64,000 bases of DNA from a bacterium EF100-94H03 bin56 (lineage in GTDB: Bacteria > Pseudomonadota > Alphaproteobacteria > SP197): NCBI GenBank assembly GCA_002238685.1, contig MPMV01000001.1, positions 1-64,000 on the forward strand, written 5' to 3'. The notes under the pieces were generated by a model. It ran no database searches. It had not been told where the DNA came from and saw only the letters and a list, made by a program, of their open reading frames with translations. Each line of letters opens with the position of its first letter. Position 1 is the first letter of the stretch. Both the position numbers and the translations under genes were made by a program. This document shows, piece by piece, positions 31,026 through 51,168 of this stretch.

Positions 31026-31829
31026 TCAGCCGGCGAAGCTGTAGGAATCCATGTCGAACCGAGGCTGACCCGTGACACCCGTCAGGCCGCCGTCGCAGAC
31101 GAGCATGGTGGAGTTGACGAAGCTGGCATCGTCACTGGCAAGAAAGCAGATCGCGGCGGCGCATTCCTCGGGCGTGCCAATGCGGCCGAGAGGGGTCGAT
31201 CGGGCATAGGCTGCAGCCTGTTCGGGTGCTGTCTCGAGGCTACCCAGCATGCGCGGGGTGCCGATGGGGCCGGGACAGATCGCGTTGGCACGGATGTTGT
31301 AACGCCCGACTTCCCAGGCGAGGCACTGGGTGAGATTCCAGATTGCGGCCTTCGCGGCATTGTAGGCGCCCCACCCGGGGTCGCCGGCAAGGCCGGAGAT
31401 TGACGACATGTTGACGATGGCTCCGCCGCCCACCCCCTTCATCCGGCGTACAGCCAGGCGGCAGCAGATGACAGTCGACAGCACGTTGAGACGCCACAGG
31501 CGTTCCCAGTCGTCGCTGGCCAGGTCCTCGATGGTCCCGAACATGGAGTTTCCGGCGATATGGATCGAGGCATCGAGCCTGCCGTCAGGCATGTCATCGA
31601 GTGTCGCGAAGGCAGCCTCGATCCCGGATTCCTCCATGACATCCGCCACGACCGCCGTCACGTTCCGGCCCTCATCCTTCAACGGACCGACCGCATCCGC
31701 GAGATCGCCGGCCTCGTGGTCTACGGCGACGACGGTGGCGCCTTCGCCCGCCAGCCGCTCCATCGTTGCCCTGCCGATGCCGTTGGCGGCGCCTGTCACG
31801 AGGGCCACCCTGTCTTCGAACCGGTTCAT
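31026..31829 (-). CDS. Short-chain dehydrogenase/reductase
   Basis: A 267-residue SDR. VALVTGAANGIG is at residues 7-18, an atypical IHIAGNS replaces the NNAG motif, the Ser is in NMSSISG and the Tyr-Lys pair in YNAAKAA. The Asp in AVDHEA after beta-2 suggests NAD(H). The C-terminus is extended (QPRFDMDSYSFAG). The start ATG 31829 (MNRFEDRVALV) gives a normal N-terminus; ATG 31856 would add nine residues. The MFS gene follows closely. Confidence 0.85.
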   Translation of the reverse strand: MNRFEDRVALVTGAANGIGRATMERLAGEGATVVAVDHEAGDLADAVGPLKDEGRNVTAVVADVMEESGIEAAFATLDDMPDGRLDASIHIAGNSMFGTIEDLASDDWERLWRLNVLSTVICCRLAVRRMKGVGGGAIVNMSSISGLAGDPGWGAYNAAKAAIWNLTQCLAWEVGRYNIRANAICPGPIGTPRMLGSLETAPEQAAAYARSTPLGRIGTPEECAAAICFLASDDASFVNSTMLVCDGGLTGVTGQPRFDMDSYSFAG

Positions 31830-31930
31830 GGTCACGACATAGCGCCTCCGGCTCACCGACGCCAGACAATCCGCAAAGCAGGACGCGGATGGGCTATCCT
31901 CGCCTGATTGGCAGATTCCGGAGAACGAGG

Positions 31931-33775
31931 GTGCCCGTTTCGTCTCTTCTGGCGTCGGTGATCGATGCGGTCTCCGAAGCCGCAGACATGCTGGTCAGCG
32001 AATCGCGTCGCCCGGAAGGGCCACGTGGCGCCGGTGACAAGGCCGACATCGACGTGGAGATCGAGAACCATCTCGCCATGCGACTCATGGCCCTCCTGCC
32101 GGCCCGTTTTGTGGGTGAGGAAACGCCGGTTCGTCCCGGTGACGGATCATCCTGTTGCTGGCTGGTGGATCCACACGACGGCACGTGGGCCTGGCTTCAG
32201 GGATATCGCGGCTCATCGGTGTCGGTCGCCCTCATCGACGACGGGGTGCCGGTACTTGGCGTCGTCTGCGCGCCCATGAGTCCCGATCGCGGCCGGGATC
32301 TCATCGCCTGGGCCGAAGGCCACGCCAATCTCATCCGCAATGGTGCCGAAGTCACGGTCGATCTTGCCGCGGACGAACTCGACCGCAAGGCACGTGTCTT
32401 CGTCGACCACACCGCATCGGCCACCCCGGTGGCATGGGGCCGCGCCGTGGCGCCGGCACGGTTCATCTCCCTGCCGGGAATCGCCTACAGGCTGGCCCGG
32501 GTGGCGGTCGGGGACGGCGTCGCCACCCTCTCCCTGGGTGGGCCACGGGGCATCGACTACGCTGCCGGCCATGCCCTGCTACGGGGCGCCGGCGGTGTGC
32601 TTCTCGATGAAACGGGCAAGGAGGTCACCTATGCCCCCGATGGCGCCAGCCGAGTCCGGCGGTGTTTCGCCGGGGCGCCCGCTGCCGCACGTGAGTTGGC
32701 CGCCCGGTCTTGGCCACCACGGCGGGGCGAGGAGCCGTCACGGCTGCGGTCCAGGCCCAACTGGCCCGCTAGGGTGAGCGACGCCGTGCTCGACCGGTCC
32801 AGGGGCTGTCTCTTCGGCCAGGTGGTCGGCGACAACCTGGGTGCGCTCGTGGAATTCATGACTGCGAGGGCGATACAGCAACGCCATCCCGGGGGCGTTC
32901 GCGATCTCGAGGATGGCGGGTGCTGGAACATCCTCTCAGGCCAGGCGACGGATGACAGCGAACTCGCCCTCGCACTTGCCAGGACCCTCGTCGGCACCGG
33001 GCGCCATGACGAGGAGGCGATCGCGGCCGCCTACGGCGCATGGCTGCGGTCCAGGCCCTTCGATTGCGGCAACACCATCGCCCAGGCGCTCGGCCCCGCC
33101 TCTCGCGCTGCCGACGGATCGAAGGCCGCGGCCGCCCGGTTCTCGGCCAGCAGGGAGAGTCAGGCAAACGGATCTCTCATGCGGATCGCGCCCATCGGCA
33201 TCTGGGCCCGGGACCCGGATCTCGCGGACCAGACGGCCCGTGGGGACTCGACGCTGACCCATCCACGCCCGATTTGCGCCGACGCCTGTGGCACATTCGC
33301 CGCTGCCATCGCGGAGGGACTGCGATCCGGGGACCGCGGCGCCATGATCGAAGTGGCCCGGGCCCATTGCGTCACAGAGGAGATCAGGAACTGTCTCGCC
33401 AATGCTGACGCCGGCACATGGCCGGAAAACTTCGACAGCCATTCCATGGGCTGGGTTCTCATCGCCTTCCAGAATGCCTTCTGCCACCTCGCCCGAGGCG
33501 ACATGATCGAGACGACCCTGGTGACGACAGTAGCCAGGGGAGGGGATACCGACACCAACGCTGCCATCGCCGGCGCCCTGACGGGAGCGGCTGATGGACT
33601 GGGGTCCTTTCCCCGGCGCTGGGTCCTGCCGGTGATGGCCTGCCGCCCCCACCAGGCCCTCGGTGCAAAGAAACCGCGTCCGATGATCTACTGGCCCGAT
33701 GACCTGGCCGACCTCGCGGAGTCCCTTGTCACCGCCCGCCCGAAGGGTCGCGATCCCGGTGACACCTCATCCTGA
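31931..33775 (+). CDS. Fusion of an inositol-monophosphatase-like domain and an ADP-ribosylglycohydrolase
   Basis: About 614 residues in two enzyme domains. Residues 1-260 are inositol-monophosphatase-like with all three metal motifs: VGEETP (62-66), DPHDGT (80-85, usually DPIDGT) and IDYAAGHALLRGAGG (208-222). Residues 285-614 form an ADP-ribosylglycohydrolase with RGCLFGQVVGDNLGALVE, QATDDSELALAL (TDD motif, 340-343), NGSLMRIAPIGI and GGDTDTNAAIAGALTGA. Both active sites look intact. The GTG at 31931 has GGAGAACGAGG before it; ATG 31889 is the alternative. It may remove ADP-ribose from a target and dephosphorylate a linked product; substrates are unknown. The HigA gene overlaps its end convergently. 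Confidence 0.85.
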   Translation: MPVSSLLASVIDAVSEAADMLVSESRRPEGPRGAGDKADIDVEIENHLAMRLMALLPARFVGEETPVRPGDGSSCCWLVDPHDGTWAWLQGYRGSSVSVALIDDGVPVLGVVCAPMSPDRGRDLIAWAEGHANLIRNGAEVTVDLAADELDRKARVFVDHTASATPVAWGRAVAPARFISLPGIAYRLARVAVGDGVATLSLGGPRGIDYAAGHALLRGAGGVLLDETGKEVTYAPDGASRVRRCFAGAPAAARELAARSWPPRRGEEPSRLRSRPNWPARVSDAVLDRSRGCLFGQVVGDNLGALVEFMTARAIQQRHPGGVRDLEDGGCWNILSGQATDDSELALALARTLVGTGRHDEEAIAAAYGAWLRSRPFDCGNTIAQALGPASRAADGSKAAAARFSASRESQANGSLMRIAPIGIWARDPDLADQTARGDSTLTHPRPICADACGTFAAAIAEGLRSGDRGAMIEVARAHCVTEEIRNCLANADAGTWPENFDSHSMGWVLIAFQNAFCHLARGDMIETTLVTTVARGGDTDTNAAIAGALTGAADGLGSFPRRWVLPVMACRPHQALGAKKPRPMIYWPDDLADLAESLVTARPKGRDPGDTSS

Positions 33776-36806: not shown

Positions 36807-37546
36807 CCGGCGATCTCGCGATCTGGCTCTCCACTCCCCATACGGCCATGATCGAAATTGCCCGCGACCTGGGGTTCCGGCGCGTCGTGCTCGACATCGA
36901 GCACGGTGTCTTCGACCTCGAACGCCTGGACAGGCTGGTGCCCTTCGCGCGCGCCCTCGGCATGGAGGTCCACGCCAAGATTCTCGGCCCTGAGGCCATC
37001 CCCATCCAGCAGGCGCTCGATCTTGGATGCGACAGTGTCATCATTCCTCACATAGGGGATCGTGATCACGCGTCCCGCACATGTGCTGCCGCCAAGTACC
37101 CGCCGCTGGGCATACGCAGCTTCGCGGGCGGCCGGACCGTCGCCTACGATGCACCCGCGGACGGCTGGTTCGAGGCGGAGAACCGGCGGCAACTGTGCTT
37201 TCCCATGATCGAGAGTGCGGCGGCCCTTGCGGACATCGATGCGATCCTTGCGCTCGACACGGTGGACGGGGTGTTCGTCGGACCGTCCGATCTCGCACTG
37301 TCGTGCGGACGGGACCGCTACCGCTTCGCCGCCGAAGACCGCCGGGACCTGGAGACCATCGCCGGCGCGGCGGCGGTCGCCGGCAAGCCCTGGATCATGC
37401 CGGGCTGGACAGCCGAGGAACGCAGTCTTGCCCGGACACTGGGAACCGCCTGGATGGTCGTCGCCGACGAGACGGGGTCGATCCATTCGGGTCTGGTCGC
37501 TGCACTCGAGGCGGTTGCCGCCGAGACCGGAGAGTCCGGACGATGA
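36803..37546 (+). CDS. HpcH/HpaI-family aldolase
   Basis: A 247-residue class II pyruvate aldolase homologue. Signature elements are in order: VLDIEHGVFDLERL, KILGPEAIPIQQALDLG, KYPPLGIRSFAGGR, LCFPMIESAAAL (metal Glu) and DGVFVGPSDLALS (metal Asp). It should cleave a 4-hydroxy-2-oxo acid to pyruvate or a related 2-oxo acid plus an aldehyde. It overlaps by four bases both the RraA-like gene before it and the ThDP enzyme after it. Confidence 0.9.
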   Translation: MTGDLAIWLSTPHTAMIEIARDLGFRRVVLDIEHGVFDLERLDRLVPFARALGMEVHAKILGPEAIPIQQALDLGCDSVIIPHIGDRDHASRTCAAAKYPPLGIRSFAGGRTVAYDAPADGWFEAENRRQLCFPMIESAAALADIDAILALDTVDGVFVGPSDLALSCGRDRYRFAAEDRRDLETIAGAAAVAGKPWIMPGWTAEERSLARTLGTAWMVVADETGSIHSGLVAALEAVAAETGESGR

Positions 37547-39165
37547 CGACGCCAAGCACGGGAGAAGCCCTGATACATCTTCTCAGGGCCTACGGCGTCG
37601 ACACGGTCTTCGGCATGCCCGGTGTCCACACTCTCGACTTCTATCGAGCGCTTCCGGAAGCCGGAATCCGCCACATCGGCGTACGCCACGAGCAAGGGGC
37701 GGGTTTCATGGCGGATGGCTATGCTCGCATCTCCGGCCGGCCCGGGGTCTGCCTGCTGATCAGCGGTCCGGGCATCACCAACGCCGCGACGCCGATTGGC
37801 CAGGCCTTCTCCGATTCGCAGCCCATGCTGGTTCTCTCTTCCGTCGCCAGCCTCGCCGATCTCGGCATGGGCAGGGGACGGCTTCACGAGATTCCCGACC
37901 AGCGGGCCGTGACCGCGCCGATCACACACTTCAGCGAGTTGGCAACGACACCCGCGCAGGCAACGGAACTCGTCCATCGCGCCTTTGCCCACTTCGCCTC
38001 CCACAGGCCCCGTCCCTGTCATATCTCGGTTCCGCTGGATGTGCTGCCTCAACCCTTTGAGGGCACGATCGAGGCAGCGCGCCTGCCGGGCCTGCCGGCG
38101 CCGGACAGCGACGCACTCGATGCGGCCGCGTCGCTCGCGTCCTCATGCGGTCCCGCAGTGATCATTGCAGGAGGAGGCTCGGTGGACGCGGCCGACGAGG
38201 TGCGCGCGCTCGCCGAGCGCCTGGGCGCGGCTGTCCTTCCGACGATTGCCGGCAAGGGTGTCATGCCCGCGGACCACCCCCTGTCGCTCGAGATGACAGC
38301 GGACCAGCCGGGCACGCAATCCTTCATCTGTGAAGCCGGACTGGTCATTGCCGTCGGCACGGAGTTTGCGGAACCCGACTTCTGGATCCCCGAACCCCTC
38401 CCGGTGACCGGCAAGCTCATCCGCATCGACATCGATGCGGGGACGCTGGCCCGGGACTGGCGCGCCGATGTCGCCATCCTTGGCGATGCCGCCCGGTCCC
38501 TCGACGGTATCCTGCGGCGTCTCGAGGGACGCAACACCGGGCCCGGATACGGTGGCGATGCCCTCGATGCGGCGCGCGAGGCTGGACGCGCCGATTTCGG
38601 ATCCCTCGAGCGGCTGCACGAACCGGTCATCCGGGCCATCCGGAATGCGCTACCGCCCGACGGATACTGTTTCACGGACATGACGCAGATCGCCTATTCG
38701 GGCTATGCGCTCTTTCCGGCGAACAGACCGCGCCAGTGGTTCTTTCCCGCAGGTTACGGCACTCTGGGCTTCGCCCTGCCCGCGGCGATCGGAGCCGCGT
38801 TCGCCGCACCCGAACGGTCCGGCGCCGTGCTCATCGGCGATGGCGGGCTGCAGTTTACCGTGGCCGAACTCGCGACGGCCGTCGAACACGAACTCCCTCT
38901 CGCCATCGTGCTCTGGGACAACCACAGCCTCAAGCAGATCGCCCGATTCATGCGGGAACAGCAGATCGAGGAAATCGGCGTGCACCCCAGGAACCCCGAT
39001 TTCGCCATGCTGGCACAAGCCTATGGCATGGCCTTCTCGGAACCCTCCGGCCTGGAGGAACTCAGCGCATGCATGCGGCAGGCATGGAAGACGAAAGGCC
39101 CGACTCTCGTGCGCATCGACGAGTTCGCGGACTGGGTCCAGGAAGCAGCGCGCGAGTCACGCTGA
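37543..39165 (+). CDS. Thiamine-diphosphate decarboxylase, AruI / acetolactate-synthase-like
   Basis: A 540-residue ThDP enzyme starting at ATG 37543 (GTCCGGACGATG overlap with the aldolase stop). The N-terminal domain has VDTVFGMPGVHTLDFYRAL and VRHEQGAGFMADGYARISG with the catalytic Glu; the middle domain has GPAVIIAGGGSVDAADEV; the C-terminal ThDP-binding motif is GDGGLQFTVAELATAVEH, then LWDNHSLKQI. The N-terminal wording and GKGRGRLHE-type loop (here MGRGRLHEIPDQRAV) strongly recall 5-guanidino-2-oxopentanoate decarboxylase (AruI), so a 2-oxo acid from an arginine-like amino acid is a plausible substrate. Acetolactate synthase activity is less likely. Confidence 0.88.
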   Translation: MTTPSTGEALIHLLRAYGVDTVFGMPGVHTLDFYRALPEAGIRHIGVRHEQGAGFMADGYARISGRPGVCLLISGPGITNAATPIGQAFSDSQPMLVLSSVASLADLGMGRGRLHEIPDQRAVTAPITHFSELATTPAQATELVHRAFAHFASHRPRPCHISVPLDVLPQPFEGTIEAARLPGLPAPDSDALDAAASLASSCGPAVIIAGGGSVDAADEVRALAERLGAAVLPTIAGKGVMPADHPLSLEMTADQPGTQSFICEAGLVIAVGTEFAEPDFWIPEPLPVTGKLIRIDIDAGTLARDWRADVAILGDAARSLDGILRRLEGRNTGPGYGGDALDAAREAGRADFGSLERLHEPVIRAIRNALPPDGYCFTDMTQIAYSGYALFPANRPRQWFFPAGYGTLGFALPAAIGAAFAAPERSGAVLIGDGGLQFTVAELATAVEHELPLAIVLWDNHSLKQIARFMREQQIEEIGVHPRNPDFAMLAQAYGMAFSEPSGLEELSACMRQAWKTKGPTLVRIDEFADWVQEAARESR

Positions 39166-40665: not shown

Positions 40666-41463
40666 TCAGAACGTGACGTAGCGCCGCGAGGCGTGGGGCG
40701 CGAGCAGGCGTGTGTGCTGGCGGACTGCGTCGCGTGATAGATCGCTCGAAGGCGGCTTCTCCAGAACGAGATTGCCCTCGTGGCGCCCCCTCACCGACAT
40801 TGCCGAGACCGGTGGTCCACCGGTCCACCTGATGCGTCCCGGGAGATAGCGGACGCAGATTCCCGTCCGAGGATTGTCCGTCGTGTTCGGGCCGGATCCA
40901 TGAACAAGCAGGGCGTGATGGAGCGACATGCTGCCCGGTTCGAGTTCGTTGTCGTAAACCGGCCACGCCGCGGTATCGATTCTCGCGGTCTGACCATGGG
41001 ACAGCATGTTGTCCTCGCCCTGGCGTTCGTCGTGGGCCACGCGGCCGAGCCGGTGGGTCCCTGGCAGGAAGCGCATGCAGCCGTTGACCGAGGTCGCCGG
41101 CGTGAGAGCAATCCAGGCCGTGACGATGTCGAGCGGATCGAGGTTCCAGTAGCCGGCATCCTGGTGAAAGGAAATGTGGCGCCGGTCCCGCGCGGGCTTG
41201 GTCCAGATGTCGGCGCTCATCACCATGATGTCCGGACCCGTCAGCCGCTCCACCGTATCGAGGATGGAAGGAAGGCGGACCAGGCGGTCCATCCACGTGA
41301 AGAGCAAGTAGGACTTGTAGTACCAGGGATGCGGCAGGTCGACGTCGACCGCGTCGAGCCTGGCGAGGATGTGGGCGGCGTCATCAGCCGGCATGGCCAT
41401 GAGTGGCGCCGCAAATCCCGAGGCGCGATAATCCGCGATATCGTGGCGTGTTCCCGATGCCAT
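40666..41463 (-). CDS. PhyH (phytanoyl-CoA-dioxygenase-like) Fe(II)/2-oxoglutarate oxygenase
   Basis: A 265-residue protein. The iron ligands are in ISFHQDAGYWNLD (His-x-Asp near residue 115) and SLHHALLVHGSGPN (distal His near 205). The conserved NGCMRFLPGTHRLG and the 2-oxoglutarate-type Arg in NPRTGICVRYLP are present. ATG 41463 (MASGTRHDIADYR) is chosen; an earlier in-frame ATG adds 17 residues overlapping the divergent gene's leader. It is transcribed divergently from the KARI-like gene 50 bases away. A decayed second copy flanks it. Confidence 0.87.
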   Translation of the reverse strand: MASGTRHDIADYRASGFAAPLMAMPADDAAHILARLDAVDVDLPHPWYYKSYLLFTWMDRLVRLPSILDTVERLTGPDIMVMSADIWTKPARDRRHISFHQDAGYWNLDPLDIVTAWIALTPATSVNGCMRFLPGTHRLGRVAHDERQGEDNMLSHGQTARIDTAAWPVYDNELEPGSMSLHHALLVHGSGPNTTDNPRTGICVRYLPGRIRWTGGPPVSAMSVRGRHEGNLVLEKPPSSDLSRDAVRQHTRLLAPHASRRYVTF

Positions 41464-41512
41464 CACTCTTGCAGTACACTCCGCCTCCGAAAGACTACCG
41501 CCAGGAGATACC

Positions 41513-42520
41513 ATGGGCAGGTTCTATTTTGATGACGATGCCGATCCGGCCCTGCTCGACGGCAGGACGGTCGCCGTGATCGGCTACGGCAACCAGGGAC
41601 GCAGCCAGGCGCTCAACATGAAGGACCGTGGCGTCGACGTGATCGTCGGCAACATCGAGGACGAGTATGCCGAAAGCGCACGGGCTGACGGCTGGGATCT
41701 CCTGACCATCGAGGAGGCGGCCGCCCGGGCTGATATCCTGATGATGCTGACGTCCGATGACAGTCAGCCGGATGTCTACGAAAACTGGGTGAAGAAAAGC
41801 CTCAAACCCGGTGATGTCATGTGCTTTGCTCATGGTTTCAACATCCATTACGGCGAGATCGTGCCGGACCCGCAGACGGATGTCGTCATGGTGGCGCCAC
41901 GCATGCTCGGAGAGGGTGTGCGGGCGACGTTCCTCGAGGGGCGCGGCTTTCCAAGCCTCATTGCCGTGGCTCAGGATGGCAGTGGCAGGGCTCTTGACAT
42001 GTGCCTTGCGATCTCCTGGGCGATCGGCACGACAAGAATGGGAGCGCTGGAATCGAGTTTCGGTGAGGAGGTCCTCATCGATCTCTTCGAGGAACACCAG
42101 CCGGGACTCTACGCATTGCGCGCCATGTACACGGCACTCGTCGAGGCGGGCTGTTCTCCCGAGGCGGTCATGCTTGACCTCTACGCGTCCGGAGAGAGCG
42201 TCAAGTTCGCCGAGTACGGGCGCGACCTCGGCGCCTTCGAGCGCATGAAACGGACCAGCGCCACGGCGCAGTTCGGCCATCTCGTGTGGTCGAAACAGTA
42301 CTTCGACGAGGAAAAGACGCTCGAGGGCATGCGCCGGATGATCGCCAACATCAAGGACGGCAGCTTCATCCGTGCCCTGAAGGCCGAACGGCACAAGAAC
42401 CGGCCGGCGGTCGAGGCCGTCTGGCAGGAGAACAACGATCACGATCTTGTTCGTCGTGAACACGACCTCTACCAGCTGCTCGGGCGCCGGGCGAAGGGTG
42501 CGTCGACCCCCGGGACCTGA
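41513..42520 (+). CDS. Ketol-acid-reductoisomerase-like protein with altered active site
   Basis: A 335-residue class I KARI homologue. The N-terminal Rossmann domain is complete (VAVIGYGNQGRSQALNMKDRG, LTSDDSQPDVYENW, FAHGFNIHYGEI). The catalytic part differs from IlvC: the Lys of the APK motif is Arg (APRMLGEGVR), the first metal helix keeps Asp and Glu (LIDLFEEHQ), but the ECLHE-type second metal helix reads LDLYASGES. It may therefore be a different reductase or isomerase. The next genes are hyuA and hyuB, on the same strand after 51 bases, so it is unlikely to serve valine synthesis. Confidence 0.82.
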   Translation: MGRFYFDDDADPALLDGRTVAVIGYGNQGRSQALNMKDRGVDVIVGNIEDEYAESARADGWDLLTIEEAAARADILMMLTSDDSQPDVYENWVKKSLKPGDVMCFAHGFNIHYGEIVPDPQTDVVMVAPRMLGEGVRATFLEGRGFPSLIAVAQDGSGRALDMCLAISWAIGTTRMGALESSFGEEVLIDLFEEHQPGLYALRAMYTALVEAGCSPEAVMLDLYASGESVKFAEYGRDLGAFERMKRTSATAQFGHLVWSKQYFDEEKTLEGMRRMIANIKDGSFIRALKAERHKNRPAVEAVWQENNDHDLVRREHDLYQLLGRRAKGASTPGT

Positions 42521-42571: not shown

Positions 42572-44638
42572 ATGCCGCAAGATACGGACAGGACCCACAC
42601 GATGTGTGAAGACGGCTGGCGTCTTGGCGTTGATATCGGTGGAACCTTCACCGACTTCCAGCTCATGAACACCCGGTCGGGAGAGGTGGTGGCGCTGAAG
42701 ACGCCGTCGACGCCGGACGACCCGTCGCTGGCTGTCGCGAGGGGACTCGAGGACATCACCAGGCGGCATGGCATCGACCCTGCCGCCATCCGCTACTTCG
42801 CCCACGGCACCACGCTCGCCGTCAACACGCTTCTCGAGCGCAACGGTGCGTGCACCGGGGTGCTGATGACCCGGGGCTTTACCGATACGCTCGAACTGCG
42901 CCGCCTGCGTCTTTCGAAGGCGAACGACTTCTTTGTGCCCCGGCCGGTTCCGCTGGTGCCCCGCCAGCTGGTCCGTCCGGTCGACGAGAGACTGATGGCC
43001 GACGGTGAGGTGCTCACGCCGCTGCGGCGCGAGGATGTGGAGGAGCAGGTCCGGGCCCTGCTGGACGAGGGCGTGGAGACCATTGCCGTGTGCTTTCTTC
43101 ACGCCTATCGCAATCCACGTCACGAACGACTGGCAAGACAGTGGATCACGGACAGTTTTCCCCAGGTCTACGTCACGGTCTCGACCGATGTGTGGCCCCA
43201 GCAGCGGGAGTACGAACGCGCTCTCATCAGTGTCATCAACGCCTATGTCGGCGGTCGCATGGAGGCCTACTTCACCACCCTTGAGAAACGGACACGGGAC
43301 CTCGCCATGCCGTGCCGTGTCTTTTCGACAAAGTCGAACGGTGGCGTCATGACGGCCGCCTCGGCAGCCCGCCGGCCGGTCGAGACCCTGCTCTCCGGCC
43401 CGGCCTCGGGAGTCATCGGCGCCCGTCACGTCGCCAGCACCATCGGAGACGATCAAGTCGTCACCCTCGACATGGGCGGCACCAGTGTCGACGTGTCGAT
43501 CATCCAGGGGGCCATCGGCCAGGCGACCGACAACACGATCGGGGACATCCCGGTCATCATGCCGGCCGTCGATGTGTCGGCAGTCGGTGCTGGTGGCGGT
43601 TCGATCGCCTGGACGGACAGCGAAGGCGTGCTCAAGGTGGGTCCCCGGAGCGCCGGGGCCCGGCCGGGCCCGGCGTGCTATTCCAGGGGCGGCACGCAGC
43701 CGACCGTCACCGATGCCTATCTTGTGGCCGGGATCATCGCCGAGGACAGCCTTCTCGATGGAACGATGGTTCTCGACAGTGCGCAGGCCCACGCCGCGAT
43801 CGACCGGCTGGCGGCCGTCATCGACCGCACGGGCAGCGAGACTGCCGATGCGATTCTCCAGGTGACGACAGCCAACATCTACGCGCAACTGCTGCCCCTG
43901 ACGGCGCGGCGGGGGATCGATACGACAGGATTCTCGATGCTGGCCTATGGTGCCGCCGGTCCGACGCAGGCCTTCATGCTGGCGCGGGAACTGGACATGC
44001 GCCGCATTATCGTGCCACCCGCACCCGGGACGCTGTGCGCCCTTGGATGCCTTGTCGCGGATTTTCGTGCGGACTTCGTCCAGAGTGTATGGCGTGATCT
44101 CGACGCCCTCTCGGACAAGGATCTTGGAGACGCCTATGCCCGTCTCGAATCCCAGGCGCGCGCCTGGCTGGCGGAACAGGATGCCGGGGTGGCGGACGTC
44201 CATGTCCTGCGTTCGGCGGATCTCTGCCATATCGGCCAGTCCTACGAGATCAACGTGCCATTCCCGGACGTTCCGGCCTTGTCCACCAAGGACCTGAACC
44301 GATGGTTTCTCGAGCGTTATCAGAAGGTCTACGGCTATCACGACCCGCACGCTCCTGTGCGGATGCTGGAAGCGCGCCTGCAGATTGTCGGTATCACGCC
44401 CACTCCTCCGGTCTTTTCCGTGCCCGCCGGAGGCGGCGGAGGACCCCGGGGCGTGCGGCGTGTTCACGAAGCGGGCGACGTGGTCGAGGCTCAAGTGTGG
44501 CGGCGCCAGGATCTGCGGCAGGAGGAAATCTATCCTGGTCCACTTGTGATCGAGCAGTACGACACCACCACGTGGGTGCCACCGGGCTTCGTGGCGACGG
44601 TTGACGAATACGGGAACCTCATCGGGGAACGCGGCTGA
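42572..44638 (+). CDS. hyuA: Hydantoinase/oxoprolinase family protein, A subunit
   Basis: A 688-residue HyuA/acetone-carboxylase-beta-type ATPase. RLGVDIGGTFTDF (residues about 17-29) is the N-terminal phosphate-binding motif, TTLAVNTLLERNGA follows, the hydantoinase A core has TLDMGGTSVDVSII and VGAGGGSIAW, and AYGAAGPTQAFML is the late acetate-kinase-like motif. Members hydrolyse 5-oxoproline, hydantoins or N-methylhydantoin with ATP. ATG 42572 is used; ATG 42602 is a possible alternative. It overlaps hyuB by one base. Confidence 0.9.
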   Translation: MPQDTDRTHTMCEDGWRLGVDIGGTFTDFQLMNTRSGEVVALKTPSTPDDPSLAVARGLEDITRRHGIDPAAIRYFAHGTTLAVNTLLERNGACTGVLMTRGFTDTLELRRLRLSKANDFFVPRPVPLVPRQLVRPVDERLMADGEVLTPLRREDVEEQVRALLDEGVETIAVCFLHAYRNPRHERLARQWITDSFPQVYVTVSTDVWPQQREYERALISVINAYVGGRMEAYFTTLEKRTRDLAMPCRVFSTKSNGGVMTAASAARRPVETLLSGPASGVIGARHVASTIGDDQVVTLDMGGTSVDVSIIQGAIGQATDNTIGDIPVIMPAVDVSAVGAGGGSIAWTDSEGVLKVGPRSAGARPGPACYSRGGTQPTVTDAYLVAGIIAEDSLLDGTMVLDSAQAHAAIDRLAAVIDRTGSETADAILQVTTANIYAQLLPLTARRGIDTTGFSMLAYGAAGPTQAFMLARELDMRRIIVPPAPGTLCALGCLVADFRADFVQSVWRDLDALSDKDLGDAYARLESQARAWLAEQDAGVADVHVLRSADLCHIGQSYEINVPFPDVPALSTKDLNRWFLERYQKVYGYHDPHAPVRMLEARLQIVGITPTPPVFSVPAGGGGGPRGVRRVHEAGDVVEAQVWRRQDLRQEEIYPGPLVIEQYDTTTWVPPGFVATVDEYGNLIGERG

Positions 44639-46677
44639 TGGACGATCCCGTTCGCCTCGAAATCCTTCTCAACCGCTTCCAGGCCATTGTCGACGAGATG
44701 GCAGGCGTGATCTCGCGCACGGCGCACACTGTCTTCGTCAAGGAAACACAGGACTACGGTTCGGTTCTCGTGTCGCGGTCGGGCGAGGTGTTCGCCGCGC
44801 CGCGCCGCTATGGCGTGCTGATGATGATCGGCATGCCCATGGCCGGAGCTCTCGAGCGGATCGGTGACGATGTTGGGGAGGGCGATGTCTTCATCTCCAA
44901 TGATCCGGATGCCACCCGGGGCATGGCGACCCATCTCTCCGATGTCTACCTGTGGGCGCCGGTCCATGTTGACGGCGCCTTGCTGTGCTGGGCGTGGACA
45001 TTCATCCATGTTTCGGACATCGGTGGCAGGGTTCCCGGATCGATCGCGCCATCGAGCCACGAGATCATCCAGGAAGGCCTGCGGATCCCGCCACAGAAAC
45101 TCTATCGCGGGGGTGTCCTCAACCAGCCTCTCCTTGACATGATTCTCGCCAACTGCCGGACCCCGGAGGGTAACTGGGGCGACATGAAGGCCTGCCTTGC
45201 CGGACTGGCAACGGCCGAAAGGAGGGTTCGGCAACTTGCCGGCCATTACGGCCGCGATGTGATCGACGGCACGATCGACGAGGCTCTCGACTATGCCGAG
45301 ACCCAGGCGCGCCGGGTGATCGCTCATGTTCCCGACGGCAGCTATCGCTACACTGACTACATCGAGGCCGACATGGTGGGTCTCGGCCTGGTGCGCATCC
45401 ATGTCACGCTGACGGTCGAGGGCGATGGCATGCTGCTTGATTTCACGGGGACAGCCCCCCAGGTGAGGGCAGCTCTCAACATCCCGACCTACAACCAGGA
45501 CGGGCACTGGATGCTGATCACCGGCCTGGTGAACTGGATGTGCACCCAGGCGCCGGCCATCGCCTACAACGCCGGCCTTGTGCGGCCTCTGAAGGTGACG
45601 ATCCCGAAGGGAACGATTCTCAATCCGGAGCCCGGTGCCGCCTGCGGGGCACGCTATTCCACCAGCCACAAGGTGTGCGATGTCACCGTGGGAGCCCTGG
45701 CCCAGGCGGTGCCGATGGAGTTGCCGGCGACAGATTCGGGGCAGGGTTCCATCCTCCTCGTTTCGGTCCCCGACCTGGAGACCGGCGGCACCAGGGTGTC
45801 GGTAATCCAGCCCATCGTCGGTGGTTCCGGGGGCCGACCGGTGGCGGACGGTGTCGATGGAACCATGGTGATCCTCAATTTTCTCAAGAACATCCCCACG
45901 GAGATCTTCGAGAACGAGATGCCGGAAATCCTCATCCGCCACTACGGACTGAGGGAGGATTCAGGCGGTCCGGGCCGCTACAGGGGAGGGACCGGCATCG
46001 AGATCGAAATCGAGACGTCGTCGCACTACACCTCGATCACGTCGCGGTGCATGGAGCGCTATGTCTTCGGCCCTCCCGGCAGACTGGGCGGACACATGGG
46101 CGCCACGGGATACACCAGTCTCAATCCGGGAACGCCCCTGGAACGCGACCTCGGCAAGATCGATGTCCTCGAACTGGGGCCCGGCGATGTCCTGAGGATC
46201 GGAACCCAGGGCGGGGGCGGCTTCGGTGATCCCCTCGAAAGGCCGGAGACCGACGTCGCCAGCGACGTGGTCAACGGCGTCGTGCATCGGACCAGTGCCG
46301 AACGGCACTACGGAGTCGTGCTCGATGACGACGGCATCATCGATGCTGCGGCAACAGCCGACCGGCGTCAGTCCATCCGCCGGGAACGGAATTGGCAGGA
46401 CCCTCCCCTCTACGGATTCGGCGAGGCCCGGGAAGCCTGGTCCGCACTGTGGCCGGATGATCTCGAGGACGCTATCTCGGCAGCCACCCGAACCCTGCCG
46501 GTACAGCTCAGGCAGTTCCTTCACCAGAAACTCGTCGAGGAGATCCACCGGCGCCTCGAAGGCGGAGAAATCGTGGCGCCGGCGTGCGTCCCGGATCTTC
46601 TCGCCACGCTCGATACCGGTATGCCGCGGCGGCAAGGCCACTTTCCCCTGGGGCCATGGCCGGACGAGGGCGTGTAA
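44638..46677 (+). CDS. hyuB: Hydantoinase/oxoprolinase family protein, B subunit
   Basis: A 679-residue HyuB-type subunit. Recognisable elements: GVISRTAHTVFVKETQDYGS near the N-terminus, DVFISNDPDATRGMATHLSD, LDFTGTAPQVRAALNIP, GCGGRYSTS-like CGARYSTSHKVCDV, then RYRGGTGIEIEIE and the Gly-rich TQGGGGFGDPLERP. It pairs with HyuA in a heteromeric ATP-dependent amidohydrolase. A C-terminal extension of about 120 residues beyond the Gly-rich motif is longer than usual. Confidence 0.9.
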   Translation: MDDPVRLEILLNRFQAIVDEMAGVISRTAHTVFVKETQDYGSVLVSRSGEVFAAPRRYGVLMMIGMPMAGALERIGDDVGEGDVFISNDPDATRGMATHLSDVYLWAPVHVDGALLCWAWTFIHVSDIGGRVPGSIAPSSHEIIQEGLRIPPQKLYRGGVLNQPLLDMILANCRTPEGNWGDMKACLAGLATAERRVRQLAGHYGRDVIDGTIDEALDYAETQARRVIAHVPDGSYRYTDYIEADMVGLGLVRIHVTLTVEGDGMLLDFTGTAPQVRAALNIPTYNQDGHWMLITGLVNWMCTQAPAIAYNAGLVRPLKVTIPKGTILNPEPGAACGARYSTSHKVCDVTVGALAQAVPMELPATDSGQGSILLVSVPDLETGGTRVSVIQPIVGGSGGRPVADGVDGTMVILNFLKNIPTEIFENEMPEILIRHYGLREDSGGPGRYRGGTGIEIEIETSSHYTSITSRCMERYVFGPPGRLGGHMGATGYTSLNPGTPLERDLGKIDVLELGPGDVLRIGTQGGGGFGDPLERPETDVASDVVNGVVHRTSAERHYGVVLDDDGIIDAAATADRRQSIRRERNWQDPPLYGFGEAREAWSALWPDDLEDAISAATRTLPVQLRQFLHQKLVEEIHRRLEGGEIVAPACVPDLLATLDTGMPRRQGHFPLGPWPDEGV

Positions 46678-49730: not shown

Positions 49731-50489
49731 ATGGGGCGCGGCATCGAAGACAGGGTGGCCCTTGTGACAGGGGGTGGGTCGGGGATTGGCGAGGCGACGG
49801 CCGAGCGTCTTGCCGGCGAGGGCGCCAGGGTCTTCATTGTCGGGCGCCGCCAGGAGCGGCTCACGGCTGTCGTTGACCGTATCAGGGCTGAGGGCGGCAC
49901 CGCCGAGGGCAGCTCAGTCGATCTTTCCACGAGAACTGGCGGTGACGAGGCAGTTGCGGCGGCGGTCGCGTGGGGAGGCAGGCTCGACATTCTCGTCAAT
50001 GCCGCCGGGACCTTTCCGGCGACTCCTGTCGACAGCCTCGACGATGGGGACTGGGAGGATGCGCTCGCCATCAATCTTGGCGCCGTCATGAGGACGTCGC
50101 GCGCTGCGGCGCGAACGATGACCGAGAGCGGTGGGTCCATCGTAAACATCGCGTCGGTCAATGCCATCATGGGGGACAAGGTCTCGGTCTGCAGCGCCTA
50201 CAGCGCCGCCAAGTCGGGGCAACTGGGTCTCACCATGCAGTTTGCCGCCGAACTCGCGCCCTCCATCCGGGTGAATGCCATCCTGCCCGGGCCGGTCGAT
50301 ACGCCCATGCTGGAGGGGTGGCTGGACGATCCGGGAGAGCGCCGCGTCTGGCTGGAACGCTTTGTTCCTCTCAACCGCCTGGGACATCCAGCGGAGATTG
50401 CCGGCGCGGTGGCCTTTCTCGTTTCTGATGACGGCGCCTACATTACCGGCGCGGTCCTCCCCGTCGACGGGGGCATGACCGTTGTCTGA
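49731..50489 (+). CDS. Short-chain dehydrogenase/reductase
   Basis: A 252-residue SDR. VALVTGGGSGIG is at residues 7-18, VGRRQERL after beta-2 favours NADP, NAAGTF near 86, Ser in NIASVNA (Asn-Ile-Ala-Ser) and YSAAKSG as the Tyr-Lys pair. It begins a rightward set with the DUF1989 gene (overlapping), the MBL-fold gene and the TPR gene, so the four are probably one operon. Confidence 0.87.
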   Translation: MGRGIEDRVALVTGGGSGIGEATAERLAGEGARVFIVGRRQERLTAVVDRIRAEGGTAEGSSVDLSTRTGGDEAVAAAVAWGGRLDILVNAAGTFPATPVDSLDDGDWEDALAINLGAVMRTSRAAARTMTESGGSIVNIASVNAIMGDKVSVCSAYSAAKSGQLGLTMQFAAELAPSIRVNAILPGPVDTPMLEGWLDDPGERRVWLERFVPLNRLGHPAEIAGAVAFLVSDDGAYITGAVLPVDGGMTVV

Positions 50490-51168
50490 CAAGAGGGCCG
50501 CCGCCGGCACGCAACTCCTCGTGCGTGATGATCTGGTGGCGCCCGGAGCGCCGTGGTCCGGCGTTGTCCGTCGTGGCGAGACGCTGCGCATCATCGATCT
50601 TGAGGGACGCCAGGGTGTCGATTTCCTGTGTTACAACGCCGCCGATCCCGCGGAGCGCTATCACGCACCGAACACCATCAAGAAGAGCGCAACGCTGCGG
50701 CTGACCCGGGGCCATGTGCTCTACTCCGATCGGGCGCGGCCGCTCTTCACCATCGTTGCCGACACCTGCGGCTTTCATGACACCATCGCCGGCTGCTGCA
50801 GCGAACCCTCCAACGCGATGCTCTATGGTGTCACCGGCGTGCCCGGGTGCCGCGAGAACTTTCTCAAGGCGCTGGCGCCACATGGTCTGGGCTGGCGGGA
50901 CATCGTTCCCAACGTGAACTTCTTCTGCCACGTTCCTGTCCGCGAGGAGTTCCTGCTGGCGGAACGCACGTTCGTCGACAGTCCGTCCGCACCGGGCGCC
51001 CGGGTCGATCTCAGGGCCGAGCGGGATGTTCTCGCCGTCATCTCCAATTGTCCGCAAGTCAACAACATGGCAGCCGGCGGCCGGCCGACACCGATACGCG
51101 TCCGGATCATCGCTTGCCGACAGGGCGATGCGTGGCATCATGACGAACCGAAAACGCTGGGGAACTGA
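50482..51168 (+). CDS. Urea-carboxylase-associated (DUF1989) family protein
   Basis: A 228-residue DUF1989 protein: GVVRRGETLRIIDLEGRQGV near the start, DFLCYNAADPAERYHAPNT, FTIVADTCGFHDTIAGCC, CRENFLKALAPHGLGWRDI and VNFFCHVPVREE. The Cys and His residues of those motifs form the putative metal site of the family. Relatives accompany urea carboxylase, and some act on carboxyguanidine. Neither partner is here. The start is a TTG at 50482, eight bases inside the SDR end; no ATG gives the family N-terminus. Confidence 0.85.
   Translation: MSDKRAAAGTQLLVRDDLVAPGAPWSGVVRRGETLRIIDLEGRQGVDFLCYNAADPAERYHAPNTIKKSATLRLTRGHVLYSDRARPLFTIVADTCGFHDTIAGCCSEPSNAMLYGVTGVPGCRENFLKALAPHGLGWRDIVPNVNFFCHVPVREEFLLAERTFVDSPSAPGARVDLRAERDVLAVISNCPQVNNMAAGGRPTPIRVRIIACRQGDAWHHDEPKTLGN

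Follow-up and report, generated by a model that had tools for sequence, protein, structure and literature searches.

The locus studied here raises the question of what a protein built like a ketol-acid reductoisomerase (KARI) does at the head of a hydantoinase operon. The gene lies at positions 41513..42520 (+ strand) of the window, that is, the whole stretch of 64,000 nucleotides of contig MPMV01000001.1 that was analysed. The original prediction saw in its product a KARI-like protein without the usual catalytic residues, which may have been repurposed for a product of hydantoin or oxoproline chemistry. Our main reading, to which we give a probability of roughly 55%, is that the protein, called KARIL below, belongs to an ancient sister clade of KARI that acts outside branched-chain synthesis and was recruited here into a hyuAB operon.

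The gene is the first of its operon and encodes a KARI-fold paralogue of 335 amino acids, in which Pfam recognized both KARI_N (194 bits) and KARI_C (59 bits). The AlphaFold2 model was confident (mean pLDDT 93.9) and could be superimposed on known KARI structures over approximately 320 residues with Z-scores of up to 38, indicating a complete KARI fold, with the Rossmann and the knot domain at full length, and thus more than the Rossmann half. The window's family contains 15 further genomes, 13 of which carry an orthologue with 68-98% identity, so a chance ORF is not a plausible explanation. The protein passed the NCBIfam model TIGR00465 for ilvC (240.6 against a cut-off of 226.15). Such a score would suit a second ordinary KARI making dihydroxyisovalerate, for instance with NADH under other redox conditions, next to which the hyuAB genes would be incidental. 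However, the cut-offs of two further ilvC equivalog models were missed (263 against 336 and 212 against 406).

To examine the catalytic residues, 32 KARILs, including that of the window, were compared with 34 canonical KARIs (66 proteins altogether). The canonical catalytic lysine, present in 34/34 KARIs, is arginine in 32/32 KARILs (codon 130, 41900..41902, + strand), as had been predicted from the AP-Lys to AP-Arg change, and the Gly-Pro that follows it is replaced in KARILs by Met-(Ile/Leu/Val). On the other hand, Asp190, Glu194, and Ser249 are common to all 66 proteins. His107 is found in every canonical KARI and in 10 of the 32 KARILs, among them that of the window, and the other 22 carry serine. 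The metal helix reads LDLYASGES in the window protein, as was noted previously; its segment D-L-Y-A-S-G-E (codons 222-228, 42176..42196, + strand) carries two inserted residues, and the E-x-x-x-E of the KARI helix corresponds to [E/D]-x-[Y/S]-x-S-x-E in KARILs. With all seven MAFFT settings and in a profile-profile alignment, Asp222 was placed on canonical Glu226 and Glu228 on canonical Glu230, and Glu228 is present in all 32 KARILs. An ungapped reading, in which Glu230 would have become serine, was abandoned in view of the residue comparison and both kinds of alignment. According to PMC8615647, the metal ions of MtKARI are held by Asp191, Glu195, and Glu231, with Glu227 at a distance. Given this ligand set and the alignments, the direct metal ligands appear to be kept in KARIL, and the acids for two Mg2+ ions would be Asp190, Glu194, Asp222, and Glu228, the latter two separated by the two-residue insertion. 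The view that the usual catalytic residues are missing was therefore half right: the helix is remodelled, but Lys130 is, as far as aligned sequences can tell, the only catalytic residue that is strictly replaced, and no loss of the metal site is seen.

A further difference was found in the cofactor loop, N-I-E-D in the window protein (codons 47-50, 41651..41662, + strand). Asp50 is present in 32/32 KARILs and 0/34 KARIs, which mostly have Leu at position 47 and Ser or Gly at position 50; at position 47, 24 KARILs have Asn and 8 have Ser. According to PMC9359912, the phosphate of NADP is kept out of BurG, a KARI homologue that binds NAD+, by Asn48 and Asp51. By this parallel and the single residue Asp50, KARIL is likely to prefer NAD(H). 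The structure titles of Sso-KARI, a member of the same clade, name both NADH and NADPH.

In a maximum-likelihood tree of the 66 proteins, one branch with support of 100/100 separated the 32 KARILs from the 34 canonical KARIs, which places the window protein outside the canonical clade. It carries the complete signature of the KARIL clade (GNQG, Asp50, APRM, and [ED]x[YS]xSxE). Among the matches listed, KARILs occur in Alphaproteobacteria, on plasmids of Sulfitobacter and haloarchaea, and in Chloroflexi, Acidobacteria, Armatimonadia, Bacillota, Treponema, and Thermoprotei; the contig census gives at-least values, and one of its two search patterns also matches canonical KARIs. The gene is rare in the window's class (3/289 genomes, all three in the window's family), and in a draw from the phylum it was present in 1/349 genomes, namely the window's own. 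In the class of locus L043, 18/147 genomes had a KARIL at E<=1e-100, 11 more matching genomes being canonical by motif, and in the class of L044 it was found in 2/196, with 2 further matches canonical. We conclude that KARIL is an ancient sister clade of canonical KARI, spread across bacteria and archaea, and that it may comprise several functions. The literature searched contained no paper naming this clade, which does not by itself prove its absence in print.

The clade is easily taken for ilvC, as most KARILs scanned pass TIGR00465 like the window protein, and the plasmid copies (L033, L035-L038) are annotated as ilvC with GO terms for valine and isoleucine. Valine synthesis may thus be over-called, and many genomes probably bear a wrong ilvC label on this gene. 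One Sulfitobacter plasmid carries an N-terminally shortened KARIL flanked by IS elements (L034, 14001-14855).

Does KARIL serve the branched-chain pathway? The original prediction had named the lack of another ilvC in the genome as a point against itself, but a canonical KARI was located on contig C13 of the same genome, in an operon ilvB-ilvH-ilvC with the large and small subunits of acetolactate synthase, which supports the notion of a repurposed paralogue. A canonical KARI accompanied KARIL in 16 of 22 other genomes and was absent from 6, as checked by motif. ILVD_EDD was absent from exactly these six and present in the other 16 and in the window's genome; the controls of this search were positive in 14/14, and the absence of the pathway was judged from KARI and dihydroxyacid dehydratase. 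As both are missing from the same six genomes, KARIL is retained in the absence of the branched-chain pathway. The KARIL contigs of G561 and G563, of 1.50 and 1.54 Mb, make up nearly the whole listed genome, so missing sequence is unlikely to be the cause in these two of the six, while the other four are more fragmented. The six genomes are related, five having come from the search of the class Thermoprotei, and hence they do not represent six independent events.

Another role would be that of a ketopantoate reductase substituting for PanE, a side job that IlvC performs in C. glutamicum. A table in PMC4353338 names ilvC together with panE, and PanB was found in all six genomes that have KARIL as their only KARI. 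However, a gene of the PanE/ApbA type adjoins panB in each of these six, and the window protein has no ApbA domain match. PanB was absent from 6 of the 17 other KARIL genomes searched, which would leave these without a source of ketopantoate, and the context in the window contains no pantothenate gene. The PanB search and the neighbours of panB thus weakened this reading, and we regard it as very doubtful.

KARIL leads the hydantoinase operon on the same strand, as predicted: it is followed by a hyuA-like gene (42572..44638, + strand; Pfam domains Hydant_A_N and Hydantoinase_A) and a hyuB-like gene (44638..46677, + strand; Hydantoinase_B), the start of which overlaps the hyuA stop. A PhyH-type Fe/2-oxoglutarate dioxygenase gene (40666..41514, - strand) was confirmed as divergent by its ORF and Pfam. 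Its most upstream ATG overlaps the KARIL start in the sequence CCATGG (41511-41516), and its true start probably lies near 41463, since relatives align only from approximately 41430-41442. Within the family of 16 closely related genomes, whose synteny counts are not independent, KARIL is present in 14, the window's own included, and missing from G005 and G007. In 14/14 of these genomes hyuA lies 3' of KARIL, 13/13 on one contig and the remaining one (G009) joined via two contigs, as contig C162 carries both the C-terminal part of KARIL and hyuA. The hyuB gene is next in order in 13/13 examined, including the window, and PhyH is divergent in 13/14, G014 having no PhyH.

An SDR gene lies approximately 9 kb away in the window (31026..31856, - strand), and its orthologue stands beside PhyH and KARIL in relatives: genes 60-93% identical to it were found nearby in six of them, and in a seventh (L125) an SDR was seen that shares 81% identity with the one in L120. 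A GcvT-like gene was also considered as an operon partner and dropped, as at E<=1e-100 it was found in 8/16 family genomes, including one that has no KARIL, but not in the window's own; this patchy distribution points to an accessory gene rather than a core partner. Elsewhere in the window, one ORF (31766-33775, + strand) combines inositol monophosphatase family and ADP-ribosylglycohydrolase domains. A TPP enzyme of the 5-guanidino-2-oxopentanoate decarboxylase subfamily (37546-39165, + strand; 613 against an NCBIfam cut-off of 500) is preceded by RraA-like and HpcH/HpaI aldolase genes. Downstream of hyuAB and outside the conserved unit lies a gene for a DUF1989 protein (50482-51168, + strand), followed by an MBL-like gene recognized by eye.

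The two family genomes without KARIL could suggest that the gene is out of use or decaying and survives by linkage. In G005, HyuA has no match better than 34%, and in G007 (L192, 8169-10887) hyuA and hyuB are separate fragments and the KARIL-PhyH-GcvT-SDR block is missing, whereas the flanking GBBH-like and aldolase-like genes remain. KARIL was thus lost along with the operon and not alone, and the aligned relatives, at 68-98% identity, keep all family-wide residues, which makes decay extremely unlikely. The joint decay in G007 supports one functional unit, although it is support and not proof, since bases are masked at this locus and apparent frameshifts could stem from faulty assembly.

The family-wide association does not extend to the clade. 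The original prediction had proposed to see whether close homologues always sit with hyuAB; this held for hyuA in 14/14 genomes of the window's family, but no adjacent hyuAB was present in the other KARIL loci read, as judged by Pfam for some loci, by the record annotation for plasmids, and by eye for the rest. A general link between KARIL and hyuAB was accordingly rejected. The sole hyuAB seen outside the family was in Sulfitobacter (L033), approximately 11 kb from a KARIL that is accompanied by GntR, a TRAP transporter, glycerate kinase, and aldehyde dehydrogenase. In Halomarina and Haladaptatus the neighbours include the mandelate racemase family (enolase superfamily) and an SDR or glucose dehydrogenase, with RraA in one, and two other Haladaptatus plasmids showed no telling neighbours of KARIL. 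GntR-type regulators and GntP-like permeases were found in Treponema and Faecalicatena (by Pfam for one of each), and the acidobacterial gene has a rhamnosidase upstream and an SDR downstream. The small Thermoprotei KARIL genes stand with translation genes, as seen by eye, and in one case with an ABC transporter, and no clear cluster was apparent in the loci of Chloroflexi and Armatimonadia. These contexts suggest that catabolism of acids or sugar acids is a common setting in bacteria and haloarchaea, though not a universal one.

A reading closer to the hydantoinase genes is the redox conversion of a cyclic imine or amino acid arising from lactam opening by HyuAB. The nearest NCBIfam model of HyuA is caprolactamase alpha (471 bits) and that of HyuB caprolactamase beta (258 bits). 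In PMC4353338, Streptomyces KARIs are described as promiscuous reductases that also accept pyrroline-5-carboxylate, and by this precedent an imine route would be possible for KARIL. However, both scores are far below the cut-offs of 1000, so that lactam opening is unproven and the HyuAB reaction could be either hydrolysis or carboxylation; no conserved imine-forming gene was seen in the operon, and other KARILs do not adjoin hyuAB. We consider this reading quite unlikely. As to hydantoin or oxoproline chemistry as the source of the substrate, nothing in our analysis shows either.

What chiefly speaks against a non-KARI function of the clade is the nearest solved protein by sequence, the 'putative KARI 2' of Saccharolobus solfataricus (Sso-KARI), with 17 entries (6jcv and 16 others). 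It belongs to the same clade as the window protein, with 38-39% identity, the APRM and YASGE motifs, and a fold matching over approximately 320 residues with Z-scores of 31.7-36.9 (PDB 6jcv, 6jd2, 6jcz, and others). It differs in having Ser at the position of His107 and Glu instead of Asp as the first metal acid, and its gene adjoins thiC, not hyuAB. The entry titles name Mg2+, NADPH or NADH, and the ligand CPD. Sso-KARI reportedly shows KARI activity, and in view of this and the CPD complexes KARIL may still turn over acetolactate. The occurrence of the same residue changes in proven KARIs, which the original prediction had held to speak against it, is in this way only partly borne out.

The printed sequence of Sso-KARI is identical, letter for letter, to the KARIL at locus L172 of genome G588, which is therefore probably Saccharolobus solfataricus. 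In L172 (8145-10487) the gene starts approximately 45 bases after that for ThiC, and a second KARIL of this genome is arranged alike (L173, 6763-9102). ThiC and KARIL are neighbours in L174-L176 as well (Sulfolobales; by Pfam for L172-L174 and by eye for L175 and L176). In L235, an acetolactate-synthase-type TPP enzyme is encoded close to the canonical KARI of G588, and the small ORF between the two had no Pfam match. The 17 Sso-KARI entries hence represent the KARIL clade and not the ilv-operon branch of G588, which bears on how these structures are read. For the window protein, the Mg2+- and CPD-bound Sso-KARI and the kept metal acids speak for an ordinary second KARI. Against it stand the clade-wide replacement of Lys130, the canonical ilvC in an operon of its own, the 6/22 KARIL genomes with neither canonical KARI nor ilvD, and the operon with hyuA in 14/14, and we find this explanation unlikely.

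We therefore return to a KARI sister clade recruited into the hyuAB operon. Both KARI domains, Rossmann and knot, would be kept in KARIL, together with the metal acids and the architecture for hydride transfer. With the aligned metal acids and the NAD site, its substrate would most likely be a Mg2+-chelated 2-hydroxy or 2-oxo acid, oxidized or reduced by hydride transfer at C2 with or without a 1,2-shift. In the window's family, where KARIL is the first gene with an ATP-dependent hyuAB beside an SDR and usually the PhyH dioxygenase, it would probably prepare or remove an acid handled by HyuAB, in a route that takes up and degrades a small molecule. From the transporters and hyuAB we would guess that the direction is catabolic rather than synthetic. 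A more specific version, which we offer tentatively, is that of an NAD+-dependent oxidoisomerase that runs the KARI reaction in reverse, breaking down a branched 2,3-dihydroxy acid and passing the keto product to the ATP-driven HyuAB. If true, the pathway would be new, and the clade, with the much-studied Sso-KARI, would be a general non-valine family concealed by the ilvC label. Both the existence of the clade and, in the window's family, its link to hyuAB are well supported, and the window KARIL is a real, conserved gene that is probably mislabelled. A clade that survives without ilvD offers a clean starting point for finding the true substrate.

Among known systems, canonical class I KARI (IlvC, EC 1.1.1.86) shares with the window KARIL the whole fold, the Mg2+ acids as aligned, Ser249, and His107, but differs in Arg for Lys130, Met for Gly/Ala/Ser131, the two-residue insertion, and the Asp50 loop; KARIL also forms a separate clade and does not stand with ilvBN or ilvD. 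The HyuAB partners share a superfamily with enzymes of the caprolactamase and acetophenone carboxylase type, though they lie below every equivalog cut-off. A reverse-KARI-type step in the breakdown of a sugar acid would be comparable to the reaction of the D-apionate oxidoisomerase ApnO, which belongs to a protein family other than KARI. BurG, the KARI homologue that builds a cyclopropanol, has another gene context and another substrate than KARIL, but at 34-35% identity it likewise uses the KARI fold outside branched-chain synthesis, and its NAD+-binding Asn48 and Asp51, compared by the positions given in PMC9359912, are close to Asn47 and Asp50 of KARIL.
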